The translations under genes were made by a program, and so were the position numbers. Source: Paenibacillus sp. FSL H7-0331 (GTDB taxonomy: Bacteria > Bacillota > Bacilli > Paenibacillales > NBRC-103111). Taken from it: a DNA stretch of 64,000 nt. Shown one piece after another: positions 38,941 to 55,337 of this stretch. Each line of letters opens with the position of its first letter. Within the stretch, counting starts at the first letter, position 1. The notes beneath the pieces were generated by a model, which did not search any database, was not told the origin of the DNA, and saw only the letters and a program-made list of their open reading frames with translations. The DNA lies in contig NZ_MRTH01000020.1 of assembly GCF_001956045.1 (NCBI RefSeq), positions 62,001 to 126,000 on the forward strand, written 5' to 3'.

Positions 38941-38989
38941 TGAACAGGGTGGGAAGTAGGGCTATACTTTTTTTGGGGGTGTTGATCTA

Positions 38990-39907: not shown

Positions 39908-41347
39908 ATGTCAAAAGGTATCAAATGCTCGTTAATTTTCATTTTGGCTATCGCTTTATTGATCTCCGGATGCAGCGGAAATACTCAACAGGTCATGGAC
40001 AGCAAAGCGAATCAAGGGGCTGCTCCTGCTGCTGCTTTGAAAGAGCTTCCCCAGCCGTACGGTATCCAGTTGAAGGATATGGATGGTGGCAGCACCTTGA
40101 AAGGACAGTATAAAGGCAGAAAAATTACTTTGGCGGTTTCAAGCGGAAGTTTTGAAAACGCAATCAAGGCTGTTGCCCCATATTTTGAACAGGTTTCCGG
40201 CGCAAAAGTAGAAGTGCAAAGTATTCCGGGAGATAACTTGATGGATAAAGTTCAATTGGATCTAAACTCCAGTCATATTTACGATGTTGTCATTACGCCG
40301 ATCGCCTTTATCCATGGCTTCGCCGAAGGGAATCAATTGAAAAACCTCCAGCCGTTCGTTGATAATCACAGTATCGCAAGTCCTAATTTGGATATGGCTG
40401 ATTTCATTCCAAGCCTATTGGATATCTATGGAAAGTATAAAGGGAAACTCGTCGCGTTTCCGTACAAACCGGATGTTCAATTATTCTTCTATCGAAAGGA
40501 TTTGTTTGAAGATCCCAAAATTAAGGCCGCCTACAAAGAAAAAACCGGGAACGAGCTAAAAGTTCCCGAAACTCCGGAAGAGTTTGTACAAACAGCAAAA
40601 TTTTTTACCAAAAGCCTGAATCCCGATTCTCCAGTGACCTATGGATACAGCACTATGGCATCCAAAGGAAGAAGTCGTTGGTTGTGGGTAAACCGTCTAG
40701 CCTATTACGGTGGCAATAATGTAGATGGGAACTTCAAACCTGCCTTTAACAATAAAGCCGGTTTGGAAGCTATGAACATTATGTTGGAGCTTCAGAAAAC
40801 TGCACCGAAAGAATTGCTGCAATTTGGATGGGATGAGGCCAATAACTTCTTTGCCACGGGTGAAGTTGCCATGATGGAACAGTGGCCTGGATTGTTTTCC
40901 GTTATCCAAGGCGATAAATCCAAAGTTAAGGATAAAGTTGGATTTGCCGTAACTCCCGGTCAAGCACCTACTCTTGGCGGTTGGGCGATATCGATGGCGG
41001 AAACATCAAAGGAGGCAGAATTAGCTTACAAATTTATCGAATATGTGACATCCAAAGATGCGGAACTGTTGAAAATGAAAGATACGATGGATCCGACACG
41101 AAAATCAAATTATGAAAGACAAGAAGTAAGGGACTCCCAACCATTCTACCCAGCATTATTGAATTCATTAAAAGCGGCAAAAATACTTGCCGATACGGAC
41201 GTTCCCTTTATTTCTGCCAAGTTAAATGATATTCAGGAAGTGGCAACTCAGAGTGTTTTGAACGGTCAAACGACGCGGGAAGAAGCATTACAATCCATGG
41301 CTAAAAGTTTCGAAACCGAAATCGGTAAATTGAAATTGGCAAAGTAA
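39908..41347 (+). CDS. extracellular sugar-binding lipoprotein (cluster C)
   Basis: A 479-residue type-1 extracellular binding protein with the lipobox LISGC (Cys22). The mature protein shows the SBP landmarks ITLAVSSGSFENAIKAVAPYFEQ (in part), VVITPIAFIHGFAEG, LVAFPYKPDVQLFFYRKDLF and a late GEVAMMEQWPG. AAAGGGAGG precedes ATG 39908. It should bind the saccharide imported by the split permease pair. A hairpin (41366-41406) separates it from the GH43 gene and could lower downstream expression. Confidence 0.88.
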   Translation: MSKGIKCSLIFILAIALLISGCSGNTQQVMDSKANQGAAPAAALKELPQPYGIQLKDMDGGSTLKGQYKGRKITLAVSSGSFENAIKAVAPYFEQVSGAKVEVQSIPGDNLMDKVQLDLNSSHIYDVVITPIAFIHGFAEGNQLKNLQPFVDNHSIASPNLDMADFIPSLLDIYGKYKGKLVAFPYKPDVQLFFYRKDLFEDPKIKAAYKEKTGNELKVPETPEEFVQTAKFFTKSLNPDSPVTYGYSTMASKGRSRWLWVNRLAYYGGNNVDGNFKPAFNNKAGLEAMNIMLELQKTAPKELLQFGWDEANNFFATGEVAMMEQWPGLFSVIQGDKSKVKDKVGFAVTPGQAPTLGGWAISMAETSKEAELAYKFIEYVTSKDAELLKMKDTMDPTRKSNYERQEVRDSQPFYPALLNSLKAAKILADTDVPFISAKLNDIQEVATQSVLNGQTTREEALQSMAKSFETEIGKLKLAK

Positions 41348-41365
41348 CAGCGGATTTATGGATCG

Positions 41366-41406
41366 ACAGGCAAAGACTTCTACAGCACGCAGTGATCTTT
41401 GCCTGT
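41366..41406 (+). terminator. intercistronic hairpin after the binding-protein gene
   Basis: A perfect 11-bp stem, ACAGGCAAAGA and TCTTTGCCTGT, with a 19-nt loop. No T run follows, so it may act as a partial terminator or an mRNA 3'-end stabiliser that keeps the binding protein in excess. Its stem is almost the same as that of the terminator at 4631. Confidence 0.5.
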
Positions 41407-41447
41407 AGACTAAATGAACTTCAAATATTATAGAGGAGTGGTAGGGT

Positions 41448-42395
41448 ATGGGCAAAACTTTTATGAATCCATTACTCGAGAACGGCGCGGACCCTTGGAT
41501 GTATAAACACGAAGACGGAACCTATTATTTGATGGTTACAAGACAAGGTCGACTGGATCTATGGAAATCTGACAATATGACGAATATCGCCAGCGGTAAC
41601 CAAAAGACAATCTGGACCCCGGAGGAAACAGGCAGCAATAGCAAGAATCTTTGGGCTCCTGAAATTCATTATATTAACAAAAAGTGGTATATTTACTATA
41701 CAGCGAATGATGGAGGAGGGGACAGTACTCGAAAAATATTCGTCCTTGAAAATGAAGAAGAAGACCCTTTTGAAGGAACATGGATGGATAAAGGCTCAAT
41801 TATTACAGAGTATGCAGGCTTGGATGGTACGGTATTTGAACATAGGGGAGAGCTTTATTTCCTGTATGCGGGCTACGGTCATTTCCCGGAATATGGGTCT
41901 GCGATTTATATTGCAAAAATGGCCAATCCTTGGACAATAGAAGGAGAAAACGTCCTGCTCAGTAAACCGACGGACCCATGGGAAATGCAGGGTGGTATGG
42001 CGATTAATGAAGGACCAGCAATTTTGAGAGGCTATGGGAAGATTTTTCTTGTGTTCTCGGCAAGCACTTGTTGGTCTGATGACTATTCACTAGGTATGCT
42101 GACGTGCTCCGAACAGGATGATGTGATGAATCCGAAATCCTGGATAAAGACTCCAAATCCAGTATTCCACAAGAGCTTGGAAAACCAGGTGTTCGGTCCC
42201 GGGCATAATAGTTTTGTTAAATCACCTGATGATAAGGAATATTGGATAGTCTACCACGCGATTCCAGTTTCGGGTGCAGGAAGTGCACATCGCAGTACTA
42301 GAGCACAAAAATTCGGATGGGATGATCAAGGTAATCCTGATTTCGGAATTCCGGTCCCGATCCATGTGCAAATTGATGTGCCTTCCGGCGAGTAA
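41448..42395 (+). CDS. GH43-family glycoside hydrolase
   Basis: A 315-residue five-bladed beta-propeller glycosidase without a signal peptide, so it is cytosolic. The three GH43 acidic residues are visible: base Asp15 in NGADPWMYKH, pKa modulator Asp126 in GLDGTVFEH and acid Glu188 in NEGPAILR. Blade repeats such as WAPEIHYINKKWYIYY are typical. The family contains arabinofuranosidases, xylosidases and arabinanases; the NPLLENGADPW start resembles the group of exo-acting arabinan-related enzymes. It follows the cluster C binding protein by 100 bp, with GAGGAGTGG before ATG 41448, and would split the imported oligosaccharide. Confidence 0.88.
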   Translation: MGKTFMNPLLENGADPWMYKHEDGTYYLMVTRQGRLDLWKSDNMTNIASGNQKTIWTPEETGSNSKNLWAPEIHYINKKWYIYYTANDGGGDSTRKIFVLENEEEDPFEGTWMDKGSIITEYAGLDGTVFEHRGELYFLYAGYGHFPEYGSAIYIAKMANPWTIEGENVLLSKPTDPWEMQGGMAINEGPAILRGYGKIFLVFSASTCWSDDYSLGMLTCSEQDDVMNPKSWIKTPNPVFHKSLENQVFGPGHNSFVKSPDDKEYWIVYHAIPVSGAGSAHRSTRAQKFGWDDQGNPDFGIPVPIHVQIDVPSGE

Positions 42396-42502
42396 CGTAA
42401 CAGGACCAACACCATTTTGGAGCAATTTGTCTGGGACCAAGCCTTGTTTTGGTTCCGATCAATCGACTAGAAATCGTTAAATTGAGATGGGAGAGAGATA
42501 AA

Positions 42503-43333
42503 ATGATGCGTTTGGCGATAATTGGTGATTTGCATTTTTTTGATAATAAATTTGTACAAGGAAATGAAGAACTGTTATTGGCTAAAGAAAGTTTCTATGA
42601 GAGATATTTGCAAAAGTTCTTCGAAATTGAAGCCGACTTGCACATCTCCCTTGGTGATTTGACCCACATGGGATGGGAGGAAGAATTTGAAAGCGTTTAT
42701 CAACATATTCGTAACTCCGGTATATCTTTTCGCCATATATTAGGAAACCACGATGCTTATGAATTACCTAAAACTAAAATTCAATCATTGATTGCTAATC
42801 CATTGAATGATGTATTTGAAACCGAAGAGGCCCTATTCGTGTTTGTTGATTCGACTAGAGAAATGGACCCGAAAGATTATAGCGGTCATCTTAATGCGGA
42901 CCAATTGGAATGGTTGGAGGCACAAATGCTCGTTTCTCCATCAAAGCCAATTTTAGTTTTTGCCCATCATCCCCTATATAACACGACAACCGGGTCAACG
43001 GATGAAAAAATGCATATTGATCCGACCATTGATATGCGTGCAATATTACGAAAAAGACAAGGAAACTGTTTTTACTTCAACGGCCACAATCACATACACT
43101 CCATTGTAAGAGAAGAACAATGGAACTTTATTCAAACTGCAGCAGGCATGTGTCATCCTTCCATACGCATCGTGGAAATCGATAAGTCTGAAGTTCGAAC
43201 CCGCATAGTAGCCATCGAGGATAAAGAATTATTAGAAGCTGCGCAGATTCTATATGATAAGTTACCTCAATATCATCGGCCATTACATGCATATGGGCAA
43301 AATGCGGATCGGGATCAAATCATATTGTTGTAA
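42503..43333 (+). CDS. calcineurin-like metallophosphoesterase
   Basis: A 276-residue cytosolic phosphoesterase with all five motif blocks: GDLHFF (Asp9, His11), SLGDLTHMG, LGNHDAYE, FAHHPLY and NGHNHIHS. These hold two metal ions and hydrolyse phosphomono- or diesters. It resembles the CpdA/GpdQ branch. It begins about 100 bp after the GH43 gene; GGGAGAG precedes ATG 42503, and an upstream in-frame ATG at 42449 has no ribosome site. Its place at the end of a sugar-import operon suggests it removes phosphate from, or opens a phosphodiester in, the imported compound. That substrate is inference. Confidence 0.82.
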   Translation: MMRLAIIGDLHFFDNKFVQGNEELLLAKESFYERYLQKFFEIEADLHISLGDLTHMGWEEEFESVYQHIRNSGISFRHILGNHDAYELPKTKIQSLIANPLNDVFETEEALFVFVDSTREMDPKDYSGHLNADQLEWLEAQMLVSPSKPILVFAHHPLYNTTTGSTDEKMHIDPTIDMRAILRKRQGNCFYFNGHNHIHSIVREEQWNFIQTAAGMCHPSIRIVEIDKSEVRTRIVAIEDKELLEAAQILYDKLPQYHRPLHAYGQNADRDQIILL

Positions 43334-43632: not shown

Positions 43633-43661
43633 TTGACAAACGAAAGTTATAGTGCGAAAAT
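43633..43661 (+). promoter_or_regulatory. cluster D importer promoter (twin of the one at 50129)
   Basis: TTGACA (43633-43638), a 17-bp spacer ending in TGC, and GAAAAT (43656-43661) form an extended -10 promoter. The promoter at 50129-50157 has the same hexamers, spacing, TGC extension and flanks (AAACG before, AATAA after). Co-regulation of the importer and catabolic operons is the natural reading. Confidence 0.75.
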
Positions 43662-43879
43662 AATAACTATAATCTTAGCTTTAACTAATGATTGCAGCAT
43701 GAGAAGGCATCCATAGTCTGGTTAGAGTCTTTATTGTATACGCATTCAATAATGCGGTTAGCCGGTATCTTAGTTTCGTGTATATCAGGAGGTGTGCTTG
43801 ATTATAAGAGTGTTGAAGCTTGGCGATTGAAAAAGGGAGCTGTTTTGAATTGTTGTAAAGAAAAGGAGAGGGATTTCTC

Positions 43880-44932
43880 TTGGCATCCATAGAGTTCGTG
43901 AAGGTAACCAAATCGTTTGATAAGCAGGATGTTATAAAAGATTTGGATTTAAAGATTGAAGACGGGAAGTTTACGGTTCTGGTTGGTCCGTCAGGCTGCG
44001 GGAAGACGACACTTCTTCGTATGATTGCCGGTATTGATCCTCAGACCTCTGGTTCGGTGCTTATAAACGGAAAGGATGTCACACGAATTGCACCCGGTCA
44101 AAGAGGAGTAGCTATGGTATTCCAAAACTATGCCATTTACCCCACGATGTCTGTAAGGGAGAATATTGAGTTTGGACTAAAAAACAATAAGGTGGGTAAA
44201 GAGGAAAGAACCCAACTCGTGGAGAGTATCAGTACTACAGTTGGTTTGAATAACTACCTTGACCGTAAACCGTCCACCTTATCCGGCGGACAACGCCAGC
44301 GCGTCGCATTGGCACGTGCCATGGTTAAGAAGCCTTCCGTGTTTCTGATGGATGAGCCGTTGTCCAATCTGGATGCCAAGCTCAGAGGGCAGATGCGTAT
44401 CGAATTGATCGAGCTGCACAAGAAATTAGGTACCACCTTCGTATATGTAACGCACGATCAAGTGGAAGCGATGTCTATGGCTGACACGATTGTTTTAATG
44501 AACCAGGGACTGATACAACAAGAGGCTCCACCGGATATTATTTATCGTCAGCCCAACAATTTGTTCGCAGCACAGTTTATCGGCGTCCCGCCAATGAATG
44601 TGGGTAACTTGAATGTGGACGGAGTGAAGTTTGGTTTCCGACCGGAGAGTACGGAAGTATCCAATGAGCCTCTCGACCATCATTATTCTCTCCGTGGAGT
44701 AATTGCTACAAGGGAGATGCTTGGATCCGAAACGCTGTATCAAATAAAAACCAAAGAGCATTCCTTCATGGTCAAGTGCGTCGAAGACCGCTTTAGCGTC
44801 GATCAAGAGGTATACTTGGGAGTTCAGGCATCCAAGTTGTTTTTTTTCGGAGCCGATGAAAACCGTATTCTTGAGAAGCATAGCCGTTTTCCTGACTACT
44901 TGGAGGCGCTGAAAGGGCAGCGGCATGGATAA
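43880..44932 (+). CDS. sugar ABC transporter ATPase (UgpC/MalK/MsmK family)
   Basis: A 350-residue ATPase of the CUT1 class. Walker A is GPSGCGKTT (36-44), the signature LSGGQRQRVALARA (134-147) and Walker B VFLMDEP (154-160); THDQVEAM is the H-loop. The C-terminal 110 residues form the shorter TOBE regulatory domain. The start is TTG 43880, preceded by AAGGAGAGG. It overlaps the permease gene by 8 bp. Unlike clusters A-C, this importer carries its own ATPase, so it may also energise them. Confidence 0.93.
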   Translation: MASIEFVKVTKSFDKQDVIKDLDLKIEDGKFTVLVGPSGCGKTTLLRMIAGIDPQTSGSVLINGKDVTRIAPGQRGVAMVFQNYAIYPTMSVRENIEFGLKNNKVGKEERTQLVESISTTVGLNNYLDRKPSTLSGGQRQRVALARAMVKKPSVFLMDEPLSNLDAKLRGQMRIELIELHKKLGTTFVYVTHDQVEAMSMADTIVLMNQGLIQQEAPPDIIYRQPNNLFAAQFIGVPPMNVGNLNVDGVKFGFRPESTEVSNEPLDHHYSLRGVIATREMLGSETLYQIKTKEHSFMVKCVEDRFSVDQEVYLGVQASKLFFFGADENRILEKHSRFPDYLEALKGQRHG

Positions 44933-45803
44933 TAGAACATTATGGGAAAGGCTTCGTCCGTATCTATTGGTTACTCCTGCTATGATAGGTATTTGTCTTT
45001 TTATTATGTATCCTGTTGTTTATTTAGTTTATTTAAGCTTTTATAAATACAACCTGTTGAACAAAGCGAAAAGTAAATACATCGGATTTGATAACTTTAA
45101 ACAAATTTTTACTCGGGAAGATTTTTACCAGGCGCTGATGAATACGGTATTTTACACAGTCGGTGTAGTCGTATTCACCTTGCTGTTATCCCTGCTCATT
45201 GCTTTATGGTTGAATAAAAAGAAACGGTTCAATGCTATTGTTCAAGCAGGTATATTCACACCGCACATCATTTCTATTGTATCCATTGCGCTGGTGTGGC
45301 TGTGGATTATGGAACCAAGTCAAGGTTTACTGAATTTTGTGTTCAAAGCGATAGGGCTGCCACCTTCCCAATGGCTGCAGAGCTCGAGTACAGCACTTAT
45401 TTCGGTCATTATCGTATCTGTGTGGCATGGCATAGGCTACTACACGTTGATCATTATTGCTGCGCTGCAAAGCATACCTCCAACTATCTATGAAGCGGCA
45501 GCGCTAGATAATGCCAGCCGGTTCAAAGTGTTCTACAAGATAACGATACCACTTATATCACCACAGCTGTTTTTCATCCTGCTCATTATGACAATCGGCT
45601 CCTTTAAAGTGTTTGATACCGTTCAAGTTATGACGGGCGGAGGTCCAAATAACGCAACAAGTACTCTCGTTTACTACATTTATGAATATCGAACAACGAA
45701 TATTGGTTACTCAGCTGCTACAGGTGTAGTTCTTATGGCTATCATCGGGATTTTAACCGTTATCTACTTCCGGGTGCTTTCCAAAAAGGTGCATTACCAA
45801 TAA
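44925..45803 (+). CDS. CUT1 sugar/polyol ABC transporter permease (UgpA/MalF type)
   Basis: A 292-residue protein with six membrane segments; the EAA loop is EAAALDNASRFKVFYKITIP, and VMTGGGPNNATSTLVYYIY is the conserved MalF-group segment. It overlaps the ATPase gene by 8 bp and is followed 36 bp later by its partner permease. Confidence 0.9.
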   Translation: MDNRTLWERLRPYLLVTPAMIGICLFIMYPVVYLVYLSFYKYNLLNKAKSKYIGFDNFKQIFTREDFYQALMNTVFYTVGVVVFTLLLSLLIALWLNKKKRFNAIVQAGIFTPHIISIVSIALVWLWIMEPSQGLLNFVFKAIGLPPSQWLQSSSTALISVIIVSVWHGIGYYTLIIIAALQSIPPTIYEAAALDNASRFKVFYKITIPLISPQLFFILLIMTIGSFKVFDTVQVMTGGGPNNATSTLVYYIYEYRTTNIGYSAATGVVLMAIIGILTVIYFRVLSKKVHYQ

Positions 45804-45839
45804 GCCGCTTACATAACCAAGAAAAAGGGGAATTCGTAC

Positions 45840-46670
45840 TTGAAGACATATGAATTCAAATATTGGACGATATTGGAAATTATATTGAAAGCGGCCGTGT
45901 TAATGGTGTTTATTGTCCCATTTCTATGGATGATTTCAACGTCGCTGCAAACGTTTGAGGAGACCATGACTTTCCCGCCTACGATTATTCCGGTGATGCC
46001 TCAATGGGTCAATTTTGTAGACGCCATGAAAGCAGGGCCATTTCTGACGTATGGAATCAATTCTGTCATCATTACGGTCTCGATTATTGTGATTCAATTA
46101 GCCGTAATGATCCCGGCAGCCTACTCATTTGCCAAATATAAATTTGCAGGGAAAAATATACTGTTCGGCATGGTTTTACTGGCTTTCATGGTTCCTGGAC
46201 AGGTTACTTTTATTCCTATCTATTTAATGATGGCGGATTGGGGAATCGGCAAGACGCTGCTGCCACAAATTATTCCTTTTATGTCCAGCGCCTTCGGAAT
46301 CTTCCTCATGCGTCAATATTTTATGCAAATACCGCAAGAAATTATCGAAGCAGCGAAGCTGGATAATGCAAGTGAGTTTAAGATTGTATGGAACATTATG
46401 ATTCCGATGTCAAAGTCGGCGTTGGCAACCATCGCGCTGTTCAGTTTTGTCAGTCATTGGAACGATTATTTCTGGCCGTTGATTATGACAGATTCGGCTT
46501 CAATCCGCCCTCTGACTATAGGTATTGCCATGCTCCGAATGACCGAAGGGATCAGTAACTGGAATATTATCATGGCTGGAAACGTTGTTTTGGTTGTTCC
46601 TATTCTTATTGTGTATCTGTTCTGCTACAAGCAAATTGTTAAAGCTTTTGTTTACTCTGGCATTAAGTAG
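45840..46670 (+). CDS. CUT1 sugar/polyol ABC transporter permease (UgpE/MalG type)
   Basis: A 276-residue six-TM subunit with the EAA loop EAAKLDNASEFKIVWNIMIP. The start is TTG 45840, with AAAAGGGGAA upstream. It lies between its partner permease and the binding lipoprotein, which begins 55 bp after its stop. The ending FVYSGIK matches UgpE-like proteins. Confidence 0.9.
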   Translation: MKTYEFKYWTILEIILKAAVLMVFIVPFLWMISTSLQTFEETMTFPPTIIPVMPQWVNFVDAMKAGPFLTYGINSVIITVSIIVIQLAVMIPAAYSFAKYKFAGKNILFGMVLLAFMVPGQVTFIPIYLMMADWGIGKTLLPQIIPFMSSAFGIFLMRQYFMQIPQEIIEAAKLDNASEFKIVWNIMIPMSKSALATIALFSFVSHWNDYFWPLIMTDSASIRPLTIGIAMLRMTEGISNWNIIMAGNVVLVVPILIVYLFCYKQIVKAFVYSGIK

Positions 46671-46725
46671 CAGGTTGGTTTCTATTAGATCAAATATGAG
46701 ACAAAGAAACTGGAGGAATTTCAAA

Positions 46726-48069
46726 ATGAGGAATAAGTTAAGTGTAATGATGACAGTACCGGTAGTACTGAGTCTGTTAGCAGGCTGCTCCGGAGGTACA
46801 CCGCAAGTGAATGAAACCAAGCCGGCTTCCACGCCAGCAGGTACTCAAAAACCAGCTGAAACCGCTAAGGTACCAGAGCCTGCCAAGACTGGAAAGACGA
46901 CCGTTCAGTTCTGGCACTCCCTAGGCGGGAAAAATTTGGAGTATATGGATGGCTTAATCAAACGCTTCAATGAGAGTCATAAAGATATTGAGGTTGTGGG
47001 TACATACCAAGGTAGTTATGATGAAACCGTAACCAAGCTTCAGCAAGCCATTGCTGCTAAGAAAGGACCGGATATTACCATGCTGGAGCGTGCATATGTA
47101 GAGTTTTTTGCAGATGCAGATGTGCTCGAAGACCTTAACCCGTATCTCAAGAGCTCCAATTTGAGCGAAGATATTTTTGTGCCTGGATTTATGGGACATT
47201 CGACCTTTAATAAAAAGCTGGTTTCACTTCCGTTAAATCGTTCGACTCCGATCATGCATATTAATAAAACATTGCTGGATGAGAAAGGGCTCGCCATTCC
47301 GACTACTTGGGATGAATTGCAGAAAGTATCCGAAGCATTGGTCGTCAAAGAAAATGGGCAGTACAAACGGTATGGTATGACGATGCCGTATGATACTTGG
47401 TATCCTATAGCCATGATTTCTCAAGCCGGAGGAAAGTTCTTCAGTGACGATAAGAAAACGGTTGGTTTTGTAGATAACGGGGTTGGACTGAGAATGTTCA
47501 AATTCTTGAAGGATCTTCAAAGCACAGGTGCGTTATACTATCCTCCTGCCAAAGATTCCGGTGAAATTACAAATCAAATGTTCATTGACGGTAAAGTGGG
47601 TGTTTTCTATCAATCAACAGGCAACATCGGCAGCTTCAGTGGTATCGTTAAGTTTAACTATGTAACCGCATTCTTGCCTAAGGACAAAGTATTCGCTAAC
47701 CCGACCGGCGGAGCAAACGTAGCTATGCTGTCATCTGCTGCCGATAAAAAAGCGGCTTGGGAGTTTATGCGCTGGATGGAAACGGATCCGCAGGGAGGCT
47801 TGCAGTTCATTTTGCAATCCGGGTACCTACCGTTTACAAAAGCTATGGTTGAGTCTAAAGAAATTAAAGAATTGTGGGCAAAGGAGCCCAATCGTAAAAC
47901 TGCTTACGACCAGCTTCAATATGCGGTTGATACGAACAAGAGTGTTGCTTGGCCTGAGGTAAATAAGGAATTCTTATCAGCAAGTGAAGCGATAATGTAT
48001 GACAGTAAAGATATACAAACAACATTGTCGTCCTTTAAGAAAGAAACCGATAGAATTCTGTCGAAATAA
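46726..48069 (+). CDS. extracellular solute-binding lipoprotein (UgpB-like)
   Basis: A 447-residue binding protein with the lipobox LLAGC (Cys21), then a Pro/Ala/Thr/Lys-rich linker to about residue 60. The fold begins TVQFWHSLGGKNLEYMDGLIKRFN (in part), close to UgpB proteins that bind glycerol 3-phosphate or glycerophosphodiesters. GGAGGAAT precedes ATG 46726; the open frame reaches back to 46585 inside the permease gene without a ribosome site. A phosphodiesterase gene follows 19 bp later, which supports a phosphodiester-type or polyol ligand. Confidence 0.88.
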   Translation: MRNKLSVMMTVPVVLSLLAGCSGGTPQVNETKPASTPAGTQKPAETAKVPEPAKTGKTTVQFWHSLGGKNLEYMDGLIKRFNESHKDIEVVGTYQGSYDETVTKLQQAIAAKKGPDITMLERAYVEFFADADVLEDLNPYLKSSNLSEDIFVPGFMGHSTFNKKLVSLPLNRSTPIMHINKTLLDEKGLAIPTTWDELQKVSEALVVKENGQYKRYGMTMPYDTWYPIAMISQAGGKFFSDDKKTVGFVDNGVGLRMFKFLKDLQSTGALYYPPAKDSGEITNQMFIDGKVGVFYQSTGNIGSFSGIVKFNYVTAFLPKDKVFANPTGGANVAMLSSAADKKAAWEFMRWMETDPQGGLQFILQSGYLPFTKAMVESKEIKELWAKEPNRKTAYDQLQYAVDTNKSVAWPEVNKEFLSASEAIMYDSKDIQTTLSSFKKETDRILSK

Positions 48070-48088
48070 ACGTGGGGAGCGGACTTTC

Positions 48089-48925
48089 ATGATGGTTACA
48101 GATCGTAAAGATGCAAATCAAAAGGTTCATTGGCAAGCCCATCAAAGCACGAATGCCGAGATGCCTGAGAACACATTGGCGGCCATGCGATATGCTTGGG
48201 AGCTTGGCGGCATTCCGGAACTCGATATTAGGCAAACTGCTGATGGTGTTATTATCGGTATGCATGATACAACGCCGAAGCGAACAACAAACGCACCTGA
48301 ATCGGATCAGGATCGACTGATTTCGGAATGCGCGTTTGCTGAGGTTCAAGAATGGGATGCAGGGATCAAATTCAGTGAACAGTATAGGGGAGAGAAGGTC
48401 CCCGCACTTGCTCAAATATTGTCCGTGTTAGCTCAGTACCCTGAGCGTGAGCTCTACCTGGATTTCAAAGAGGTCGACTTGAAAAAAATGGCTTTGCTCA
48501 TTAAGGAATATGGAGTTGGGCGACAAATTATTTTTTGCCACTCCAATCATGAGAACTGCAAGACGGTTAAACGGTTAGTGCCAGAGGTGCGTACTATGCA
48601 ATGGATTCCCGATAATGAGGTTGACTTCAGATTTCAAGAGACGCTTGAAACCGGATTCGACTCCCTTGACATCGTTCAAATTCATTTGGTCGATGCCAAG
48701 GCAAATGAAGGATGGAGATACAGGCTGCAGCGTGAGTTTTTGCAGGAGGCGCTTAAGCATTTGAACGAAGCCGGATTAGAACTGGAAGTATTGCCATTTC
48801 ACTTCGACCAGGATTCTATGTTCGAGCTTATGGATATGGGGATCCGACGGTTTGCCGTCGACGAACCGAAAGTGTTTGTACAAACGATTCACCGTTATTT
48901 CAATGATAGGCAGAATGGTGGCTAG
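48089..48925 (+). CDS. glycerophosphodiester phosphodiesterase-family protein (atypical)
   Basis: A 278-residue cytosolic TIM-barrel GDPD. Glu44 and Asp46 (ELDIRQ) and the second catalytic His59 (GMHD) are present, as is PENT. The first catalytic His18 lies in AHQSTN, where the family normally has HRG; the missing Arg is unusual and may mean an altered substrate. Family members cut glycerophosphodiesters into glycerol 3-phosphate and an alcohol. It is the last gene of the importer operon (19 bp after the binding protein), so it probably acts on the imported compound. Two starts are possible, ATG 48089 or 48092. Confidence 0.82.
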   Translation: MMVTDRKDANQKVHWQAHQSTNAEMPENTLAAMRYAWELGGIPELDIRQTADGVIIGMHDTTPKRTTNAPESDQDRLISECAFAEVQEWDAGIKFSEQYRGEKVPALAQILSVLAQYPERELYLDFKEVDLKKMALLIKEYGVGRQIIFCHSNHENCKTVKRLVPEVRTMQWIPDNEVDFRFQETLETGFDSLDIVQIHLVDAKANEGWRYRLQREFLQEALKHLNEAGLELEVLPFHFDQDSMFELMDMGIRRFAVDEPKVFVQTIHRYFNDRQNGG

Positions 48926-48955
48926 TCATTCCTATAAATGGATTGGGTAGATACA

Positions 48956-48986
48956 AGGGGCAAGAAAGCTGCCCCTGTTTGTTATT
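48956..48986 (+). terminator. rho-independent terminator of the importer operon
   Basis: Arms AGGGGCA (48956-48962) and TGCCCCT (48970-48976) with a 7-nt loop, followed by GTTTGTTATTT. Confidence 0.75.
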
Positions 48987-49102
48987 TCGGCAAAGCAAGC
49001 AGATCGTCCATATATGGTGGACAAAATGCTCCAGAAAATGGAAAATTTATTTAGTAGTATTGGAAAGCAGGAGGGGCCTGAATATAGGGGGGATTGCTTA
49101 GA

Positions 49103-49861
49103 TTAATCGGCAATGACGATCTCTATACCATCGAGGGTATTCAGGAAGTCCCTGTCGGCGCTTTGATCCGTAATTAGGGTACTTATTTGATTAACCTCTG
49201 CAAAGGTTGCGATGGATCTGCGGTTCAGCTTGGAATGATCCAGCAAGGCAACCACTTTATTTACATTGTTCACCATCAGTTTTTTCAGCTCGGCTTCATA
49301 GATGCTGAAATCGGCTAGACCGGAAGTGGTGGTAAAGCCATGCGCAGAGGTGAAGAACACGTCGGCATGAATTTGCGAGAGCAGTCCTTTGCCAAGCAAG
49401 CCTTCCAATGAGCTCGAGCCTGGTCTAAGCACGCCTCCGATAACGATGACGTTAATATGAGGATTGCGAGTTAATTCTTGCGCTGTGGCCAACCCGTTAG
49501 TCACAACGGTTAAATAATCGTAGTTAATCAAAAGCTTGGCAAGTTCAAGGGAGGTTGAACTGGCGTCGAGAATGATACATTGGCCATTTTGAACAAAGGG
49601 AAGAGCAGCTTTACCTATCATCTTCTTCTCCGCTTGATTAGCTAAGCTGCGTGAGTGAAAGGTATTCTCGGAGGTTGTTGGTTTTGGTAAAACAGCACCA
49701 CCATGTGTTCTTTCCAGTAAACCGTCCTCTTCCAGAATTTTGAGATCATTGCGAAGCGTTCCTTCGGAAACGTTTAATTCTATGGATATATCTTTAACTA
49801 ACAATTGTTTATTTTCGTTTAATATTTGCATAATCTGATTACGTCGTTCGGGTGCCAACAT
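49103..49861 (-). CDS. DeoR/GlpR-family transcriptional regulator
   Basis: A 252-residue regulator. The N-terminal DeoR winged helix reads APERRNQIMQILNENKQLLVKD, then SEGTLRNDLKILEEDGLLERTHGGAVL. The C-terminal DeoRC domain (about 75-250) is a sugar-phosphate sensor with DASSTSLELAK and VVTNGLATAQEL. ATG 49861 follows AGGAGA. It is transcribed divergently from the dehydrogenase operon and convergently towards the importer operon. A phosphorylated catabolic intermediate such as erythrulose phosphate would be the expected inducer. It is the obvious regulator of cluster D. Confidence 0.9.
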   Translation of the reverse strand: MLAPERRNQIMQILNENKQLLVKDISIELNVSEGTLRNDLKILEEDGLLERTHGGAVLPKPTTSENTFHSRSLANQAEKKMIGKAALPFVQNGQCIILDASSTSLELAKLLINYDYLTVVTNGLATAQELTRNPHINVIVIGGVLRPGSSSLEGLLGKGLLSQIHADVFFTSAHGFTTTSGLADFSIYEAELKKLMVNNVNKVVALLDHSKLNRRSIATFAEVNQISTLITDQSADRDFLNTLDGIEIVIAD

Positions 49862-50216
49862 GTTCGCATCTCCTAGAGTACATTTTTTTAGTATTATAAC
49901 AAAATAAAAATAATCATTCAATAATTGATGTCAAATACGTATGGAAATATAATTAAAATTAATAAAGCAACCACAAACACATAAATATGAAGCATAAGCG
50001 TTAGTATCGTCTTACAGCAATCAAATTCATTTGCGCTATCTTCACTATTATATCACAAATTTAAATTGTTGGATTTCGTTTAAATGAAAACAAATGATAA
50101 CAAACAACAGTATAAATCAAATTAAACGTTGACAAAGTTTGGCTTAGATGCGAAAATAAATATGTAAAATAGGAATTGTTATATTTATCTAATATATATA
50201 CTAGGGAGGTTATTTA
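49862..50216. promoter_or_regulatory. divergent control region of the DeoR regulator and dehydrogenase operon
   Basis: The gap holds an AT-rich block at about 50094-50115 (AACAAATGATAACAAACAAC) that resembles the complement of 43466-43497 upstream of the importer operon. The forward promoter is TTGACA (50129-50134), 17 bp, GAAAAT (50152-50157), with a TGC extension, the twin of 43633. These blocks are candidate DeoR operators. The rest is AT-rich without a gene. Confidence 0.65.
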
Positions 50217-51296
50217 GTGAATATCAGTATGATTCCTGGAAATATGAAAGCCATTGTAGCCTATGCCCCGGGCGATTATCGGCTGGAAACAGTTGATGTA
50301 CCGACAGCAGGTTTTGGCGAGATGGTCATTAAAGTTGAAGCTTGTGGTATTTGTGCAGGTGATATAAAAGCGTTCCAAGGAGCGCCAAGCTTCTGGGGGG
50401 ATGACAAACAAGCTTCTTACATTAAAGCCCCCATGATTCCCGGACATGAATTTATCGGCTTTGTGGTCCAGATCGGAGAAGGTGTTGAAGGGTATTCGAT
50501 TGGTGATCGGGTCATATCCGAACAGATTGTGCCTTGCTGGAATTGCCGGTTCTGCAAGCGTGGACAGTATTGGATGTGCGAAAAGCACGACCTGTACGGT
50601 TTTCAGAATAATGTAAACGGTGCCATGGCGGAATATATGAAGTTCACGAAGGAAGCCATTAATTTCAAAGTTCCGCTTGATCTCCCGATTGAGAAAGCTA
50701 TTCTGATTGAGCCTTATGCTTGCTCTCTCCATGCCGTCCAGCGTGCACAAATCGAGCTTGGTGATGTAGTCGTCATTTCGGGAGCAGGAACATTAGGTTT
50801 AGGAATGGTAGGCGCCGCGAAAAGATCCGGAGCCGGAAAGCTAATCGTGCTGGATTTGTTCGAAGAGAGATTGCAATTAGCCAGAGAATTTGGTGCGGAC
50901 CTGGTATTGAACCCGAAAGAGGTTGATGTGGTTGCTGAGATTAAAAAGCTGACGGAAGGTTACGGTTGCGATATTTATATCGAGGCTACCGGACACCCCA
51001 AATCCGTTGAGCAGGGACTTAACATGATCCGTAAACTGGGCAGGTTCGTTGAATTCAGTGTGTTCAAGGATCCCGTCACGGTAGATTGGAGCATTATAAG
51101 CGATAGAAAAGAATTGGATGTGCTTGGCTCCCATCTTGGACCTTATTGTTACCCGCTTGTTATAGAGGGCATTGCTAATGGAGATTTCCCGACAGAGGGG
51201 GTAGTCACTCATATGCTTCCATTGGAGCAATATTTGGAAGGCTTTGATTTGGTGAAAAAAGGTATTAACTCATTGAAGGTCGTTCTTATTCCCTAA
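50217..51296 (+). CDS. zinc-dependent polyol dehydrogenase, erythritol/L-threitol type
   Basis: A 359-residue medium-chain dehydrogenase. Catalytic zinc ligands are Cys46 (CGICAGD), His77 and Glu78 (PGHEF); structural zinc ligands are Cys107, 110, 113 and 121. The NAD site is GAGTLGLGMVGAA near residue 183. Segments ISEQIVPCWNCRFCKRGQY, KHDLYGFQ and VDWSIISDRKELDVLGSHLGPY (in part) agree with what I recall of the mycobacterial erythritol/L-threitol dehydrogenase. It would oxidise a C4 polyol to erythrulose. The start is GTG 50217, with AGGGAGGT upstream. RpiB- and DhaK-type genes downstream support the assignment. Other polyols, for example glycerol or sorbitol, remain possible. Confidence 0.78.
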   Translation: MNISMIPGNMKAIVAYAPGDYRLETVDVPTAGFGEMVIKVEACGICAGDIKAFQGAPSFWGDDKQASYIKAPMIPGHEFIGFVVQIGEGVEGYSIGDRVISEQIVPCWNCRFCKRGQYWMCEKHDLYGFQNNVNGAMAEYMKFTKEAINFKVPLDLPIEKAILIEPYACSLHAVQRAQIELGDVVVISGAGTLGLGMVGAAKRSGAGKLIVLDLFEERLQLAREFGADLVLNPKEVDVVAEIKKLTEGYGCDIYIEATGHPKSVEQGLNMIRKLGRFVEFSVFKDPVTVDWSIISDRKELDVLGSHLGPYCYPLVIEGIANGDFPTEGVVTHMLPLEQYLEGFDLVKKGINSLKVVLIP

Positions 51297-51313
51297 CTTG
51301 TCTTAAAGTACGA

Positions 51314-51481
51314 GTTCAAAAAGTTCGCACTTCAGCACCGAGAAGGTTGCAAGAACCTGAAGAAGGAGGAGCGGAGCTTAGGCAAAACCTAAGTGAGCAC
51401 CGGACTTCGAAGGTGAATGCAAGTTTCGATGTCGAATACGCTTCCTGTGTTACCTCGTGATCAAGTGGGGACTTTTTGAAC
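51314..51481 (+). repeat. 168-bp element with 19-bp terminal inverted repeats (candidate MITE or structured RNA)
   Basis: GTTCAAAAAGTTCGCACTT (51314-51332) and AAGTGGGGACTTTTTGAAC (51463-51481) are inverted copies matching at 17 of 19 positions. The interior holds a local hairpin CTTAGG-CAAAA-CCTAAG and is G/A-rich, unlike neighbouring DNA. It fills the gap between the dehydrogenase and rpiB genes and would be transcribed with them. No frame codes for protein. I think closely similar units recur in Paenibacillus genomes, but I cannot check that here. Confidence 0.6.
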
Positions 51482-51523
51482 AACCTCTCATACACGTATT
51501 TCTATAATAAAGGAGCCTTACAC

Positions 51524-52021
51524 ATGAGAATAGCCATTGGAGCCGATGAGGCGGGTTTCACCTTGAAGGAAATTATTAAAAGCTATCTCGGAGAACGAGG
51601 TGTTGAGCATGTTGATTTTGGTCCGGCAGACAGTACCCAGTCCATCGATTATCCTGATGTTGGCTTTGCTGTTGCAGAAGAAGTTGTTCGAGGCCATTAT
51701 GACCGTGCCATCCTGATCTGTGGTACTGGTATAGGAATGACGATTACGGCGGATAAGGTTCCGGGAATCCGTGCAGCACTTTGCCATGACACTTATTCGG
51801 CAGAACGTGCTATGAAGAGTAACAATGCCCAGGTGCTGACGATGGGAGCGAGAGTGATCGGTTCGGAATTGGCTAAACATATTGTCCGTGCATGGCTGGA
51901 ATCGGAATTTGACGGGGGCAACTCGGAGCGCAAGGTTCAGAAGATTATGGAAGGCGAGCAAAGGCTCGCAGGTACGGGTGTATATGCAAAAGAAATCAGT
52001 TCATGTTCTACACATGAATAA
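51524..52021 (+). CDS. RpiB/LacAB-family sugar-phosphate isomerase (EryI-like)
   Basis: A 165-residue isomerase. The N-terminal IAIGADEAGF, the active-site Cys66 in ICGTGIGM, and the anion-binding helix before QVLTMGARVIG are RpiB hallmarks. The segment ERAMKSNNAQ replaces the usual R-x-H-N-D-A-N. RpiB converts ribose 5-phosphate and ribulose 5-phosphate; its EryI relatives convert D-erythrulose 4-phosphate to D-erythrose 4-phosphate. Its location between a tetritol-type dehydrogenase and a DhaK-type kinase favours the tetrose role. AAAGGAGCC precedes ATG 51524. Confidence 0.85.
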   Translation: MRIAIGADEAGFTLKEIIKSYLGERGVEHVDFGPADSTQSIDYPDVGFAVAEEVVRGHYDRAILICGTGIGMTITADKVPGIRAALCHDTYSAERAMKSNNAQVLTMGARVIGSELAKHIVRAWLESEFDGGNSERKVQKIMEGEQRLAGTGVYAKEISSCSTHE

Positions 52022-52054
52022 AGCAAAGGGATAGAAGGAAGGAGCGGTTAGGTC

Positions 52055-53056
52055 TTGAAAAAACTGATTAATGTGCCCAATGCGGTAGTCGATGAAATGA
52101 TTGAAGGGTATGTGGCGGCGTATCCGAAATATGTGAAGGTGCTGCCTGAGAATAAACGGTCCGTAGTAAGTGTGGAAACGGCAAGAGCAGGTAAGGTGGG
52201 TGTAGTGATAGGCGGCGGCAGTGGTCATGAGCCAGCCTTCATGGGTTTGATAGGACGTGGATTTGCTGACGGCGTACCGGTAGGTAACGTGTTCGCTTCA
52301 CCACCGCCGGATCCGATCCTCGAAGTGACCCGAGCGGTCAACGGGGGTGCTGGTGTTGTATATATATACGGCAATTATGCAGGAGATTGCATGAACTTCG
52401 ATATGGCAGCCGAGCTTGCGGAGATGGAGGATATACAGGTTCAGACGGTGCTGGTAACCGATGATGCAGCTTCAGCTCCGCTATCGCAAGCAGATCGCCG
52501 TCGTGGGATTGCCGGGGGCTTTCTTGTTTTTAAAACGGCGGGAGCGGCAGCCGATCAAGGCTATACCCTGGATGAAGTAGTCCTCGCTGCCCGTAAAGCC
52601 AATGCTAATCTCCGGACAATGGGCGTGGCCCTGAGCCCGTGCGCCGTGCCTCAGACGGGTAAGCCAAGCTTTGTGCTGGGCGAGGATGAGATGGAGATTG
52701 GCTTGGGCATTCACGGAGAGCCGGGCATTGAGCGGGGAACACTCAAGACAGCGGACGAAGTGACGGATGCACTGCTGGAGCGAATCCTCGAGGATATGCC
52801 GATCACTGCAGGGGAACGGGTAGTGGTTTTGGTCAACGGGCTCGGATCGACACCGCATATGGAGTTGTTCGTTGTGTACCGTCGAGTGGCGAAGCGCCTG
52901 AAAGACTTGGGTGTGAGCATTCATCGTTCCTTTGTGGGGGAATATGTGACCTCGCTGGAAATGGGAGGCTGCTCTGTGTCGGTTATGAAGCTGGACGATG
53001 AGTTGATCCGGCTGATCGATCATCCGACAGATACACCGATGTATGTGCAGCAGTAA
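52055..53056 (+). CDS. DhaK-type ketose kinase subunit
   Basis: A 333-residue dihydroxyacetone-kinase K domain. GGGSGHEPAF (53-62) binds substrate, and His220 in LGIHGEPG is the residue that forms the covalent hemiaminal with the keto sugar, so the subunit looks active. On its own it cannot phosphorylate; the nucleotide comes from the DhaL subunit next door. In this context the substrate may be erythrulose rather than dihydroxyacetone. The start is TTG 52055 with GGAAGGAGCGG upstream. There is no DhaM phosphotransfer gene in the window, so an ATP-using pair is implied. Confidence 0.9.
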   Translation: MKKLINVPNAVVDEMIEGYVAAYPKYVKVLPENKRSVVSVETARAGKVGVVIGGGSGHEPAFMGLIGRGFADGVPVGNVFASPPPDPILEVTRAVNGGAGVVYIYGNYAGDCMNFDMAAELAEMEDIQVQTVLVTDDAASAPLSQADRRRGIAGGFLVFKTAGAAADQGYTLDEVVLAARKANANLRTMGVALSPCAVPQTGKPSFVLGEDEMEIGLGIHGEPGIERGTLKTADEVTDALLERILEDMPITAGERVVVLVNGLGSTPHMELFVVYRRVAKRLKDLGVSIHRSFVGEYVTSLEMGGCSVSVMKLDDELIRLIDHPTDTPMYVQQ

Positions 53057-53114
53057 GAGCTCATCTAATGCTACCGATGTCTTGCTAATGCAAAGCATTG
53101 AGGAGGGAAAGTTA

Positions 53115-53753
53115 ATGAAAGTAAACATGGAGCAATGGAAAAGTCTCTTCGGTCATATTGCCTTACGAATCGAGGAGGAGAAAGAAGGGTTGTCCGAGCT
53201 GGACAGGGCAGTGGGCGATGGTGATCATGGGGTCACGATGTCGCTAGGCTGGGAAGCTATCGTTGAAGCAACAGCTGCATTCGAAGGGGGAGATTGCGGA
53301 GCCTTGTGCAAAAAAATCGCAATGACCTTCCTGAATGCGGTCGGATCGTCGGTAGGACCGCTGTATGCCACGGCCTTTCTGCGTGGAGCAGCGGTGCTTC
53401 AAGGAAAAGAGGAGCTGGAGGAGGAGGATATCGTTCAGTTTTGGTTGGCTGCGGTAAAGGGGATTCAAGAACGTGGCAAAGCCCAGATCGGCGATAAAAC
53501 CATGATGGATGCCTGGCTTCCTGCGATGGACGCTCTCCAGCAAGCCAGAGCAGAGGGTCAAGGACTATTGGAGAGCTTGGAAGCGGCTGTGAAGGCTGCT
53601 GAGGAAGGCAAACGCTCAACCGCTTTATTAATATCCCGAATAGGACGATCCAGCCGGTTGGGGGAGCGTTCTTCCGGTCATATCGACCCGGGAGCGGCTT
53701 CTGCTCATATCATTCTCTCGGCATTTACCGAGGCACTGACCATTCGTAAATGA
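53115..53753 (+). CDS. DhaL-type nucleotide-binding kinase subunit
   Basis: A 212-residue DhaL/Dak2 domain. The two magnesium ions and the nucleotide are held by Asp30, Asp35 and Asp37 in DRAVGDGDHG, exactly at the positions known for DhaL. SSVGPLYATAFLRGA, IGDKTMMDAW and GRSSRLGERSSGHIDPGAAS complete the eight-helix barrel. It partners the DhaK subunit. A lone DhaL normally carries ADP rephosphorylated by DhaM, while ATP-type enzymes are fused; here K and L are separate with no M. GAGGAGGGAAAG precedes ATG 53115; an upstream ATG at 53043 lies within dhaK. Confidence 0.9.
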   Translation: MKVNMEQWKSLFGHIALRIEEEKEGLSELDRAVGDGDHGVTMSLGWEAIVEATAAFEGGDCGALCKKIAMTFLNAVGSSVGPLYATAFLRGAAVLQGKEELEEEDIVQFWLAAVKGIQERGKAQIGDKTMMDAWLPAMDALQQARAEGQGLLESLEAAVKAAEEGKRSTALLISRIGRSSRLGERSSGHIDPGAASAHIILSAFTEALTIRK

Positions 53754-53811
53754 AAGCTGGGATAGCTATGAAAAATATAGGTTCAGGCTTAAAAGAAAGG
53801 GTAGTTAATCT

Positions 53812-54633
53812 ATGAGTGGAATTCGCATGATAGTCAGTGATTTGGATGGAACGCTGCTGTCTGAGGACAACAGAGTAACTGACACGGTTAAAGATGCCAT
53901 CGATCGATTTCGATTAGCCGGTGGGCTGTTTACAATCGCTACTGGCCGTTTCGGTCCAAGTACCGAAAGTATAATTAAACAGCTGAATATTGATATTCCT
54001 TTTATTTTATGCAATGGAGGCGTGCTGGCGAATCAGGATCGTGTATTAGAGATGGAGATGATTACCCTGGAAGAGACTTCATCTTTTTTATTGGAATGTG
54101 ACCGGCTCGGGGTGACCGTCATGCTGTTTCGAGAGGATGGACTTCATGCGATCCGGCGTTCGCCGCAATTGGAGTTATTTGAACAAAAAGAGGGAATTCG
54201 CAGTTCTTTCATACATGCGCTTGCTGACGATTGGCTTACCACTCCTGTCCAGAAGGTCGTTATGGTCGGAGATGTGAAGCAGATAAAGGAAATCTGGCAA
54301 AAGCAACAAAGCAGCTTTCGCAAGCAATACGCTATTACACAGTCTGAGGATGACTTATTTGAAATTCTACCGCCCTTTCAAAGCAAGGGTACGACTCTGA
54401 AAAAACTGATGACCTTGATGAATTTAGAGTCGCGGGAAGTCATGAGCATCGGAAACCAAATGAATGATCTGGATATGCTAGAAAACTCCGGAATTGGCGT
54501 AGCCGTAGCCAACAGTCACCCCGAGCTTAAAAAGAAGGCTTCCTATGTGTGCAGCAAAAGCTATGGTGAAGGCGTAGTGGAAGCAATGGAACGATTTGTA
54601 TTCAATTCAACGATTGTACGGAGGGATGCATGA
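53812..54633 (+). CDS. Cof-type HAD-superfamily sugar phosphatase
   Basis: A 273-residue haloacid-dehalogenase-fold hydrolase. Motif I is VSDLDGTLL (nucleophile Asp10, acid Asp12); the Cof-type C2 cap is in the middle; motifs III/IV are FQSKGTTLKKLM and SIGNQMNDLDMLENSGIGVAV. Such enzymes dephosphorylate sugar phosphates. Here it could recycle a dead-end phosphorylated intermediate or remove phosphate from an imported one. It is 58 bp after dhaL and overlaps the GDPD gene by 4 bp. Confidence 0.87.
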   Translation: MSGIRMIVSDLDGTLLSEDNRVTDTVKDAIDRFRLAGGLFTIATGRFGPSTESIIKQLNIDIPFILCNGGVLANQDRVLEMEMITLEETSSFLLECDRLGVTVMLFREDGLHAIRRSPQLELFEQKEGIRSSFIHALADDWLTTPVQKVVMVGDVKQIKEIWQKQQSSFRKQYAITQSEDDLFEILPPFQSKGTTLKKLMTLMNLESREVMSIGNQMNDLDMLENSGIGVAVANSHPELKKKASYVCSKSYGEGVVEAMERFVFNSTIVRRDA

Positions 54634-55337
54634 TGAAAGTAAAAGGTATCGCGCACAGAGGCTGCCCTAGCCGTTATCCTGAAAATACGCTGATTTCATT
54701 TAAGGAGACAGTGAAGCTCTCTTATTCATATCTGGAACTGGATGTTCAGCTTAGTAAGGATGGCGTACCCGTGATTATCCACGATACATCAGTGGACCGC
54801 ATGACGAACGGACAAGGGCGGGTAAAGGATTTGACCTTGGCTGAGCTCAAGGAACTGCGGATAGGGGGAACCGAGCAAATTCCTACTCTGGAAGAGGCAT
54901 TGACTTTGTTGAGGGATCAACTAATCATTGACATTGAACTCAAGCAGATGGGGAATCTGTATCCTGGATTAGAAGAAAAGGCATTGACTATGGTACAAGA
55001 GATGGGGATGCTGGATCAAGTGTTTTTTTCCTCCTTCGATCATTATTCTATGGTAAAGCTAAGACAGTTGGAGCCTAAAGCTGAAATTGGGTTGATCAAT
55101 CATAGTGCCAGCCCGGCCTTATTCCCATTCCTAAAAGAGCTGAATGCCCGATATTTGTCGATTAGTTTGGACTATGTCACCCCGGAACTGATTCAACGTT
55201 GTGAACAGGAAAATATAATCTTTATCCCTTATACGGTGGACCGGGAGGAGGATATGCAGGATATGCTCCGCTATCCGTCCGTACTCATTTGCACGAATGA
55301 GCTGGAAAGATGGGCTTCTATATCGTCAATTGGATAA
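54630..55337 (+). CDS. glycerophosphodiester phosphodiesterase
   Basis: A 235-residue cytosolic GDPD with the full catalytic set: His9-Arg10-Gly11 (AHRG), PENT, Glu36 and Asp38 (ELDVQ), and His51 (IHD). It hydrolyses glycerophosphodiesters to glycerol 3-phosphate and an alcohol. ATG 54630 overlaps the HAD stop codon (ATGATG). It is the last gene of the dehydrogenase operon, so cluster D carries two GDPD proteins, one canonical and one atypical. An IS66 scar follows directly. Confidence 0.9.
   Translation: MMKVKGIAHRGCPSRYPENTLISFKETVKLSYSYLELDVQLSKDGVPVIIHDTSVDRMTNGQGRVKDLTLAELKELRIGGTEQIPTLEEALTLLRDQLIIDIELKQMGNLYPGLEEKALTMVQEMGMLDQVFFSSFDHYSMVKLRQLEPKAEIGLINHSASPALFPFLKELNARYLSISLDYVTPELIQRCEQENIIFIPYTVDREEDMQDMLRYPSVLICTNELERWASISSIG

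Follow-up and report, generated by a model that had tools for sequence, protein, structure and literature searches.

A putative tetritol regulon with a Ugp-type front end in Paenibacillus sp. FSL H7-0331

What does a soil bacterium live on when it carries, next to one another, genes for the catabolism of a four-carbon polyol (tetritol) and an importer resembling Ugp, the system for glycerophosphodiester uptake? This question is raised by positions 43880-55337 of the window, that is, the whole stretch of 64,000 nucleotides analysed here (Paenibacillus sp. FSL H7-0331, contig NZ_MRTH01000020.1, positions 62,001 to 126,000). Two operons lie there, one for the importer (ATPase, two permeases, binding protein and GDPD1) and one running dehydrogenase-isomerase-DhaK-DhaL-HAD-GDPD2, with a DeoR-family regulator between them on the opposite strand. 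The genes named in an initial annotation of this DNA are all open reading frames whose family assignments hold, and a GDPD gene is indeed the last gene of each operon. Our tentative answer, which falls a little short of an even call, is that the tetritol pathway and the Ugp-type front end constitute one pathway fed by a phosphodiester or phosphate ester. The unusual part of this system is its front end, not its core. What can be read off the letters is gene content, conservation, the phosphate signature of the binding protein, a shared promoter signature and a missing ring-opening His in the isomerase. The features are as follows.

43633..43663, + strand: promoter signature TTGACA-N13-GTGCGAAAATAA 5' of the importer operon, one of two window matches at no more than 2 mismatches
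43880..44932, + strand: CUT1 ABC transporter ATPase, UgpC-like (top NCBIfam model UgpC, 385 bits, below the cut-off of 432)
44925..45803, + strand: UgpA-like permease (UgpA 168 bits, below the cut-off of 335)
45840..46670, + strand: UgpE-like permease (UgpE 128 bits, below the cut-off of 297)
46720 (best start)..48069, + strand: lipoprotein-type substrate-binding protein with 4/4 UgpB phosphate ligands (Y100, S175, S299, Y369)
48089 (best start)..48925, + strand: GDPD1, divergent GDPD-family enzyme with His-Gln instead of His-Arg; by eye no evident signal peptide
48956..48976, + strand: terminator-like hairpin 3' of GDPD1, a kind of site not commoner here than in shuffles
49103..49864, - strand: DeoR-family regulator, by family assignment
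50129..50159, + strand: promoter signature TTGACA-N13-ATGCGAAAATAA 5' of the dehydrogenase operon, the other of the two window matches
50217..51296, + strand: Zn-dependent medium-chain dehydrogenase, erythritol/L-threitol dehydrogenase type by family and by the names of relatives
51297..51520, + strand: dispersed 224-base repeat within the operon, with 81-83% copies in L020, L021 and L122
51524 (ATG)..52021, + strand: RpiB-like isomerase, DerI/EryI type, with Ser at the ring-opening His position
52055..53056, + strand: DhaK kinase subunit, by family assignment
53115 (ATG)..53753, + strand: DhaL kinase subunit, ATP side (179 bits, above the cut-off of 138)
53812..54633, + strand: Cof-type HAD phosphatase, closest solved relative YidA
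54630..55337, + strand: GDPD2, with the canonical GDPD motif; by eye no evident signal peptide

The core is best judged by the company it keeps. A DhaK scan of species genomes gave 440 relatives, of which the best 80 loci were used; 44 of these carry the window's dehydrogenase at 60% identity or more and are called MDR loci below (locus L060, where the dehydrogenase frame crosses a gap, was not usable). RpiB, DhaK and DhaL are present in all 44, together with GlpX in 35, an MFS carrier in 27, transketolase in 17, a transaldolase-like gene in six and, in 18, an SDR at least 40% identical to a GolD/DthD-family member, all of these counts being lower bounds owing to some loci ending near the core. 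GlpX, transketolase and transaldolase-like genes are the neighbours expected where erythrose 4-phosphate is produced. At least 14 of the 120 dehydrogenase relatives listed (77-84% identity) are named erythritol/L-threitol dehydrogenase, including proteins of P. senegalensis, Paenibacillus sp. J31TS4 and Cohnella laeviribosi. Dehydrogenase, RpiB-like isomerase, DhaK and DhaL are thus very probably a tetritol route, and the path to erythrose 4-phosphate proposed initially is supported by a gene set common to the 44 loci, whose linkage exceeds chance. A reading in terms of dihydroxyacetone only was set aside, a tetrose-type isomerase being present in every MDR locus.

The split kinase, which had been singled out as distinctive, is not: DhaK and DhaL are separate genes in 44/44 MDR loci, which makes this the rule there and no oddity. 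DhaM is absent from the window operon and from 13/19 related genomes, including all nine Paenibacillaceae (the window's own genome is outside this sample), so ATP is the likely phosphate donor, and a DhaKLM kinase dependent on the phosphotransferase system was rejected. In a DhaK tree of 81 rows the window falls among Paenibacillaceae, together with all GDPD2-bearing loci. The MDR loci do not form one group in this tree (nine label changes, versus 26.8 in shuffles), and this scatter means that DhaK alone is no guide to substrate. Two other DhaKL settings came to light. L014, L019, L020 and L021 have another DhaKL operon, in which the DhaK/DhaL pair comes after an importer and a pair of long genes of about 520 and 780 aa. 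In L005 and L011 (about 2800-11000) DhaK/DhaL are near another GDPD, an endonuclease/exonuclease/phosphatase-family-like gene, a sugar kinase and a phosphatase-like gene; a second pathway linked to phosphodiesters may be encoded there.

The isomerase says more about substrate. Tetrose 4-phosphates cannot close a furanose ring, hence loss of a ring-opening residue is a change that fits such a substrate, and the window isomerase does lack the ring-opening His of RpiB (His99 in E. coli). It has Ser instead, as do 58/58 rows from MDR loci (a count that includes re-fetched loci a second time), which agrees with its initial designation as EryI-like, of the EryI/DerI type. Ser occupies this position also in 10/10 TIM-linked rows, 7/7 rows of the AP group (DhaKL with an IolE-like gene) and 7/7 others. 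Three of the same genomes also have lone canonical RpiB copies, five in all, and these keep His. Ring opening in RpiB is ascribed to His99 and His102 (PMC3755991), and a shorter substrate is suspected for another RpiB-like protein with Ser at this position (PMC3212906).

Which tetritol is meant depends on a second isomerase that seems to be missing. Exactly one TIM gene was found in each of the 19 searched genomes with such loci (that of L002 is not among them), and no TIM homologue at 40% identity or more in the 44 MDR loci. With a single TIM per genome there is no LerI/EryH-type enzyme in sight, which leaves only the D-erythrulose branch complete and favours erythritol or D-threitol over L-threitol. 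Absence of a TIM gene beside the core would on its own be a weak argument, because 6/7 AP-group loci also have none nearby. The erythritol/threitol pathway first put forward is hence retained for erythritol and D-threitol, on the D-erythrulose branch; the L-threitol/L-erythrulose branch was rejected.

A core leading from tetritol to erythrose 4-phosphate is of an already known kind, and the suggestion of an undescribed system does not hold for this part, which is familiar from Mycobacterium smegmatis. Tetritol catabolism in that species, with EltD, LerK and DerI, was reportedly worked out by Huang in 2015; its kinase is one DhaK-family chain. The Ery pathway of Brucella comprises EryA, EryB, EryC, EryH and EryI. 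The window's putative dehydrogenase, erythrulose kinase and isomerase would lead to D-erythrose 4-phosphate as in M. smegmatis and form a three-step set. In M. smegmatis the products of EltD and LerK are L-erythrulose 1-phosphate from L-threitol and D-erythrulose 4-phosphate from erythritol; DerI yields erythrose 4-phosphate, and erythritol, passing via D-erythrulose 4-phosphate, needs no LerI, as in the window (PMC10733421). Tetritol routes of three or four steps are recognised in another source (PMC12780249), which also has the Brucella pathway end, like the window's, in RpiB-like EryI and erythrose 4-phosphate. Brucella phosphorylates first, whereas the window system would oxidise first and do without a TIM-type EryH. 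From M. smegmatis it differs in having a kinase of two separate chains, no LerI and an added HAD, two GDPDs and a Ugp-type importer, a distinction drawn from descriptions of the M. smegmatis proteins.

Turning to the front end, the likeness of the importer to Ugp noted at the outset is upheld by the binding protein, in which all four UgpB phosphate ligands are kept. These ligands are Tyr64, Ser143, Ser266 and Tyr342; two Tyr and two Ser are given as strictly conserved in UgpB and among proteins that bind glycerophosphocholine (GPC) or dinucleotides, whereas glucose binders do not conserve them (PMC12718374). The signature is present in 20/20 window-type and 8/8 L002-type binding-protein rows (counting Thr in place of Ser266 as a match; the 20 include eight re-fetched copies), and in A3 Y100, S175 and Y369 are invariant, with S299 in at least 90%. 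Eight MDR loci that lack GDPD2 (L007, L009, L046, L055, L057, L059, L067 and L080) each have a binding protein with none of the four residues. As for the glycerol-side ligands of UgpB (Glu88, Gly303, Arg393 and Trp188/Trp191), the Glu, the Gly and one Trp are retained by eye, whereas the other Trp and apparently the Arg are not. The top solved relative is UgpB with glycerol 1-phosphate (9lff), which Foldseek also places first with a structure model built from 45 sequences (mean pLDDT 86.6; a 5-sequence model, at 52.3, was discarded). By Z a trehalose/maltose protein comes first, 0.5 above M. tuberculosis UgpB, and GPC- and dinucleotide-binding proteins are equally close, so that fold matches of this modelled protein do not separate phosphate from sugar binders. 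Taken together, we find it reasonably likely that the front end takes a phosphate-bearing polyol.

The classical Ugp system consists of UgpBAEC and the cytosolic GDPD UgpQ, with the GDPD as last gene. The window shares with it a CUT1 importer of the UgpB branch, a GDPD in last place and the UgpB phosphate ligands, but differs in that its UgpA, UgpB, UgpC and UgpE equivalents all miss the NCBIfam equivalog/subfamily cut-offs and in that its promoter signature is common to the tetritol core. The two phosphodiesterases, which had been lumped together, are both GDPD-family members of different standing. GDPD2 has the His-Arg, Glu-x-Asp and His-Asp motifs, whereas divergent GDPD1 retains the last two and has His-Gln for the usual His-Arg, a change seen in 13/35 aligned GDPD1 rows, the 13 closest only. 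The GDPD1 subfamily (window 48089-48925; P0043-P0111) stands well apart from ordinary GDPDs, scores falling from 171 to 78 bits; it includes relatives named from Hydrogenedentes and Pirellulales.

GDPD1 and its importer are a module of their own. GDPD1 relatives occur in 27/104 genomes of the family (E 1e-60). In one genus GDPD1 is present in 6/13 genomes, each of them with the gene directly 3' of the binding protein; among 12 further GDPD1 loci a window-type binding protein is present in four (L125, L126, L128 and L129) and not in eight. Five Paenibacillaceae loci (L101, L102, L103, L105 and L125) have the same importer and GDPD1 as the window, 62-84% identical, but differ in lacking the tetritol core and in having another DeoR, 32-35% identical to the window's.

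What ties front end to core is GDPD2 and HAD. They co-occur in the same 7/44 MDR loci, all Paenibacillus (L002, L003, L004, L008, L012, L013 and L023), and six of these seven have DeoR regulators 74-83% identical to the window's. L005 and L011 have GDPD2-like genes but no HAD, and the MDR gene is not on the fetched DNA there. A Ugp-type binding protein with the phosphate signature lies within the fetched flank of 4/7 GDPD2-bearing MDR loci versus 0/37 others (one-sided p 0.00026, kinship uncorrected), and of 4/5 versus 0/8 when the comparison is confined to loci that have a CUT1 binding protein (p 0.007, kinship likewise uncorrected). The binding proteins of these four loci are of two types, about 28% identical, and in L012 the importer is directly 3' of GDPD2. 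In genome G116 the core is on a different contig from the regulator, which is grouped with a Ugp-type importer and HAD-GDPD2. One relative, L117 from genome G022, shows decay. To the left of the region its DNA matches window 30260-37690 at 96% identity, after which there is neither core nor importer, only short inverted fragments of the ATPase and GH43 genes and what is left of GlpX; HAD and GDPD2 persist at 94%, each frameshifted and split over two frames. The DhaK relatives of this genome are at 73% and 44% only, none close to the window's. Core loss is thus accompanied by HAD and GDPD2 decay in this one case, intact copies being found in the window and elsewhere. The initially proposed link between GDPDs and tetritol catabolism is accordingly supported for HAD/GDPD2, tied to the core in seven Paenibacillus loci; the closure of the importer operon by a GDPD is nothing new, being the classical Ugp layout.

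Control offers a second tie. The signature TTGACA-N13-ATGYRAAAATRR, built from the promoters of other genomes, matches the window at just two sites when no more than 2 mismatches are allowed, 43633 for the importer with 1 mismatch and 50129 for the dehydrogenase with none; one extra site, 23818, appears at 3 mismatches. A first version (G allowed at one place), drawn with both sites in view, had given two matches in 64 kb at no more than 1 mismatch versus none in 100 shuffles. Across 115 loci (1.99 Mb) there are 21 matches at no more than 1 mismatch (14 distinct places without re-fetched copies), and the next matched gene is dehydrogenase, DhaK or RpiB for 20 of them; the remaining one (L005) is upstream of DhaK, behind a weak match. 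In 20 further loci three matches were found at no more than 2 mismatches, 5' of a Ugp-type binding protein and of HAD in L119 and 5' of GDPD1 in L118; the L119 importer with the signature is a Ugp type unrelated to the window's. Shared control is a well-supported prediction from these sites for the window and G116, but not for every relative.

These elements could be assembled as follows. A single DeoR-controlled regulon of two operons would produce a Ugp-type ABC importer whose ligand is a polyol carrying phosphate; after uptake GDPD2, perhaps also divergent GDPD1, would open the phosphodiester, HAD phosphatase would strip the phosphate and hand free tetritol to the dehydrogenase, and the three-step D-erythrulose route would yield erythrose 4-phosphate. 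We infer every substrate in this scheme, as well as DeoR control and the order of the front-end steps. In its narrow form, where Paenibacillus lives on phosphodiester-bound tetritol (e.g. glycerophospho-tetritol or a fragment of a tetritol-phosphate polymer that is imported, cut by GDPD2/GDPD1 and freed by HAD), we regard it as unlikely. A limited literature search, judged from listings, found no natural tetritol phosphodiester and no link between tetritols and GDPDs; an erythritol teichoic acid is reported to occur in Glycomyces. We know of no described phosphodiester-fed tetritol pathway.

A number of observations weigh against joining the two modules. On the core side, (i) many dehydrogenase relatives among the matches listed bear other names (threonine, iditol or D-arabitol-phosphate dehydrogenase), (ii) at a second conserved isomerase position, where His adjoins Asp8, the window and 20/58 MDR rows have Glu and (iii) the NCBIfam D-erythrulose-4-phosphate isomerase model NF051858, whose name suggests rhizobial proteins, gives 182.4 bits, below its cut-off of 240. 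As for the importer, the other glycerol-side Trp is Tyr and the Arg is apparently replaced (by eye), at least three further copies of the binding protein (64-68% identity) are seemingly encoded in the same genome, L004, L116 and L133 have GDPD-linked binding proteins of other types without the phosphate signature, and L004 combines HAD and GDPD2 with a sugar-type importer of this sort. The promoter signature is not found, even at 3 mismatches, 5' of the importers of L002, L008, L012 and L013; L013 has no signature site at all and L004 none at 1 mismatch. Six genomes have between 7 and 18 GDPD genes each, GDPD1 is absent from L008 and L012, where the same importer is beside the core, and GDPD2 (93% protein identity) is found directly 3' of the binding protein of a different importer, with no core, in L116 (8218-10623). 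Importer and GDPD1 lie without core 3' of a glycerol-1-phosphate-dehydrogenase-like gene (in L101 it scores 194 bits, short of the cut-off of 413) in the five Paenibacillaceae loci mentioned above, so the imported compound could contain glycerol 1-phosphate instead of a tetritol. A DeoR regulator is also 5' of importer and GDPD1 there, with an argD-like aminotransferase as well in L101, L102 and L103, and these gene sets are possibly operons for scavenging glycerol 1-phosphate or glycerophosphodiesters.

How else could the locus be read? It may be that free tetritol is taken up, that the Ugp-type importer has an altered ligand and that HAD and GDPD2 are side activities travelling along (sugar-phosphate relief, phosphorus scavenging). 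An MFS polyol carrier serves the core in those 27/44 loci, the importer is devoid of the phosphate signature in 8/37 loci without GDPD2 and in L004, the glycerol-side Trp and Arg positions are changed, and HAD is nearest to YidA, a sugar-phosphatase type that would fit relief of phosphorylated intermediates. Retention of the phosphate ligands in all window-type binding-protein rows and in A3 speaks against an altered ligand, however, and it is only GDPD2-bearing MDR loci that two unrelated Ugp-type importers adjoin; we consider uptake of free tetritol rather unlikely.

Glycerol could take the place of tetritol throughout, GDPD and HAD releasing it from glycerophosphodiesters, the dehydrogenase making dihydroxyacetone and DhaKL dihydroxyacetone phosphate. 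A Ugp-type importer, GDPDs and DhaKL are all at hand for this, the importer and GDPD1 follow the glycerol-1-phosphate-dehydrogenase-like gene in five loci, and such a gene (42-46% identity) is also found in MDR loci L028 and L080. This would leave unexplained the tetrose-type isomerase of the 44 MDR loci as well as GlpX, transketolase, transaldolase and the tetritol-dehydrogenase names of close relatives, and we deem it quite improbable. It is very improbable, in our view, that a phosphate monoester (glycerol or tetritol phosphate) is imported, with HAD alone making the alcohol and the GDPDs acting on other compounds. The closest characterised binding protein, UgpB, does bind glycerol 1-phosphate and glycerol 3-phosphate, but GPC- and dinucleotide-binding proteins are as close in fold, and GDPD2 keeps company with HAD in the same seven MDR loci.

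With one pathway fed by a phosphodiester or phosphate ester as our preferred, if tentative, reading, two known modules, glycerophosphodiester uptake and tetritol catabolism, are joined in an apparent single regulon. Should the ligand be a tetritol phosphodiester, this would point to an overlooked natural pool and a class of soil compounds handled by no pathway known to us; should it be only glycerol phosphate, combined scavenging of phosphorus and carbon in Paenibacillus would be explained. Either way, the protein set is defined, and dozens of loci in which DhaK and DhaL are separate and accompanied by an RpiB-like gene could be assigned to tetrose, not dihydroxyacetone, chemistry.

Minor features of the locus and its surroundings complete the picture. 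The 224-base element between the dehydrogenase and isomerase genes (51297-51520) contains a terminator-like hairpin (51453-51470) and resembles a dispersed repeat of Paenibacillus, here lying within the operon. Upstream, 36911-43333 encodes two permeases flanking a GntR/LacI-type regulator (named by eye), a binding protein, a GH43-like protein and a metallophosphoesterase (42503-43333) with weak likeness, 35 bits, to a solved phosphohydrolase; these genes may be part of a wider system, because a 65% identical GH43 is directly 5' of the dehydrogenase in L004. Further upstream, 31669-36680 holds a sulfatase-like gene (by eye) and a second importer (two permeases and a large lipoprotein), syntenic and 96% identical in L117.

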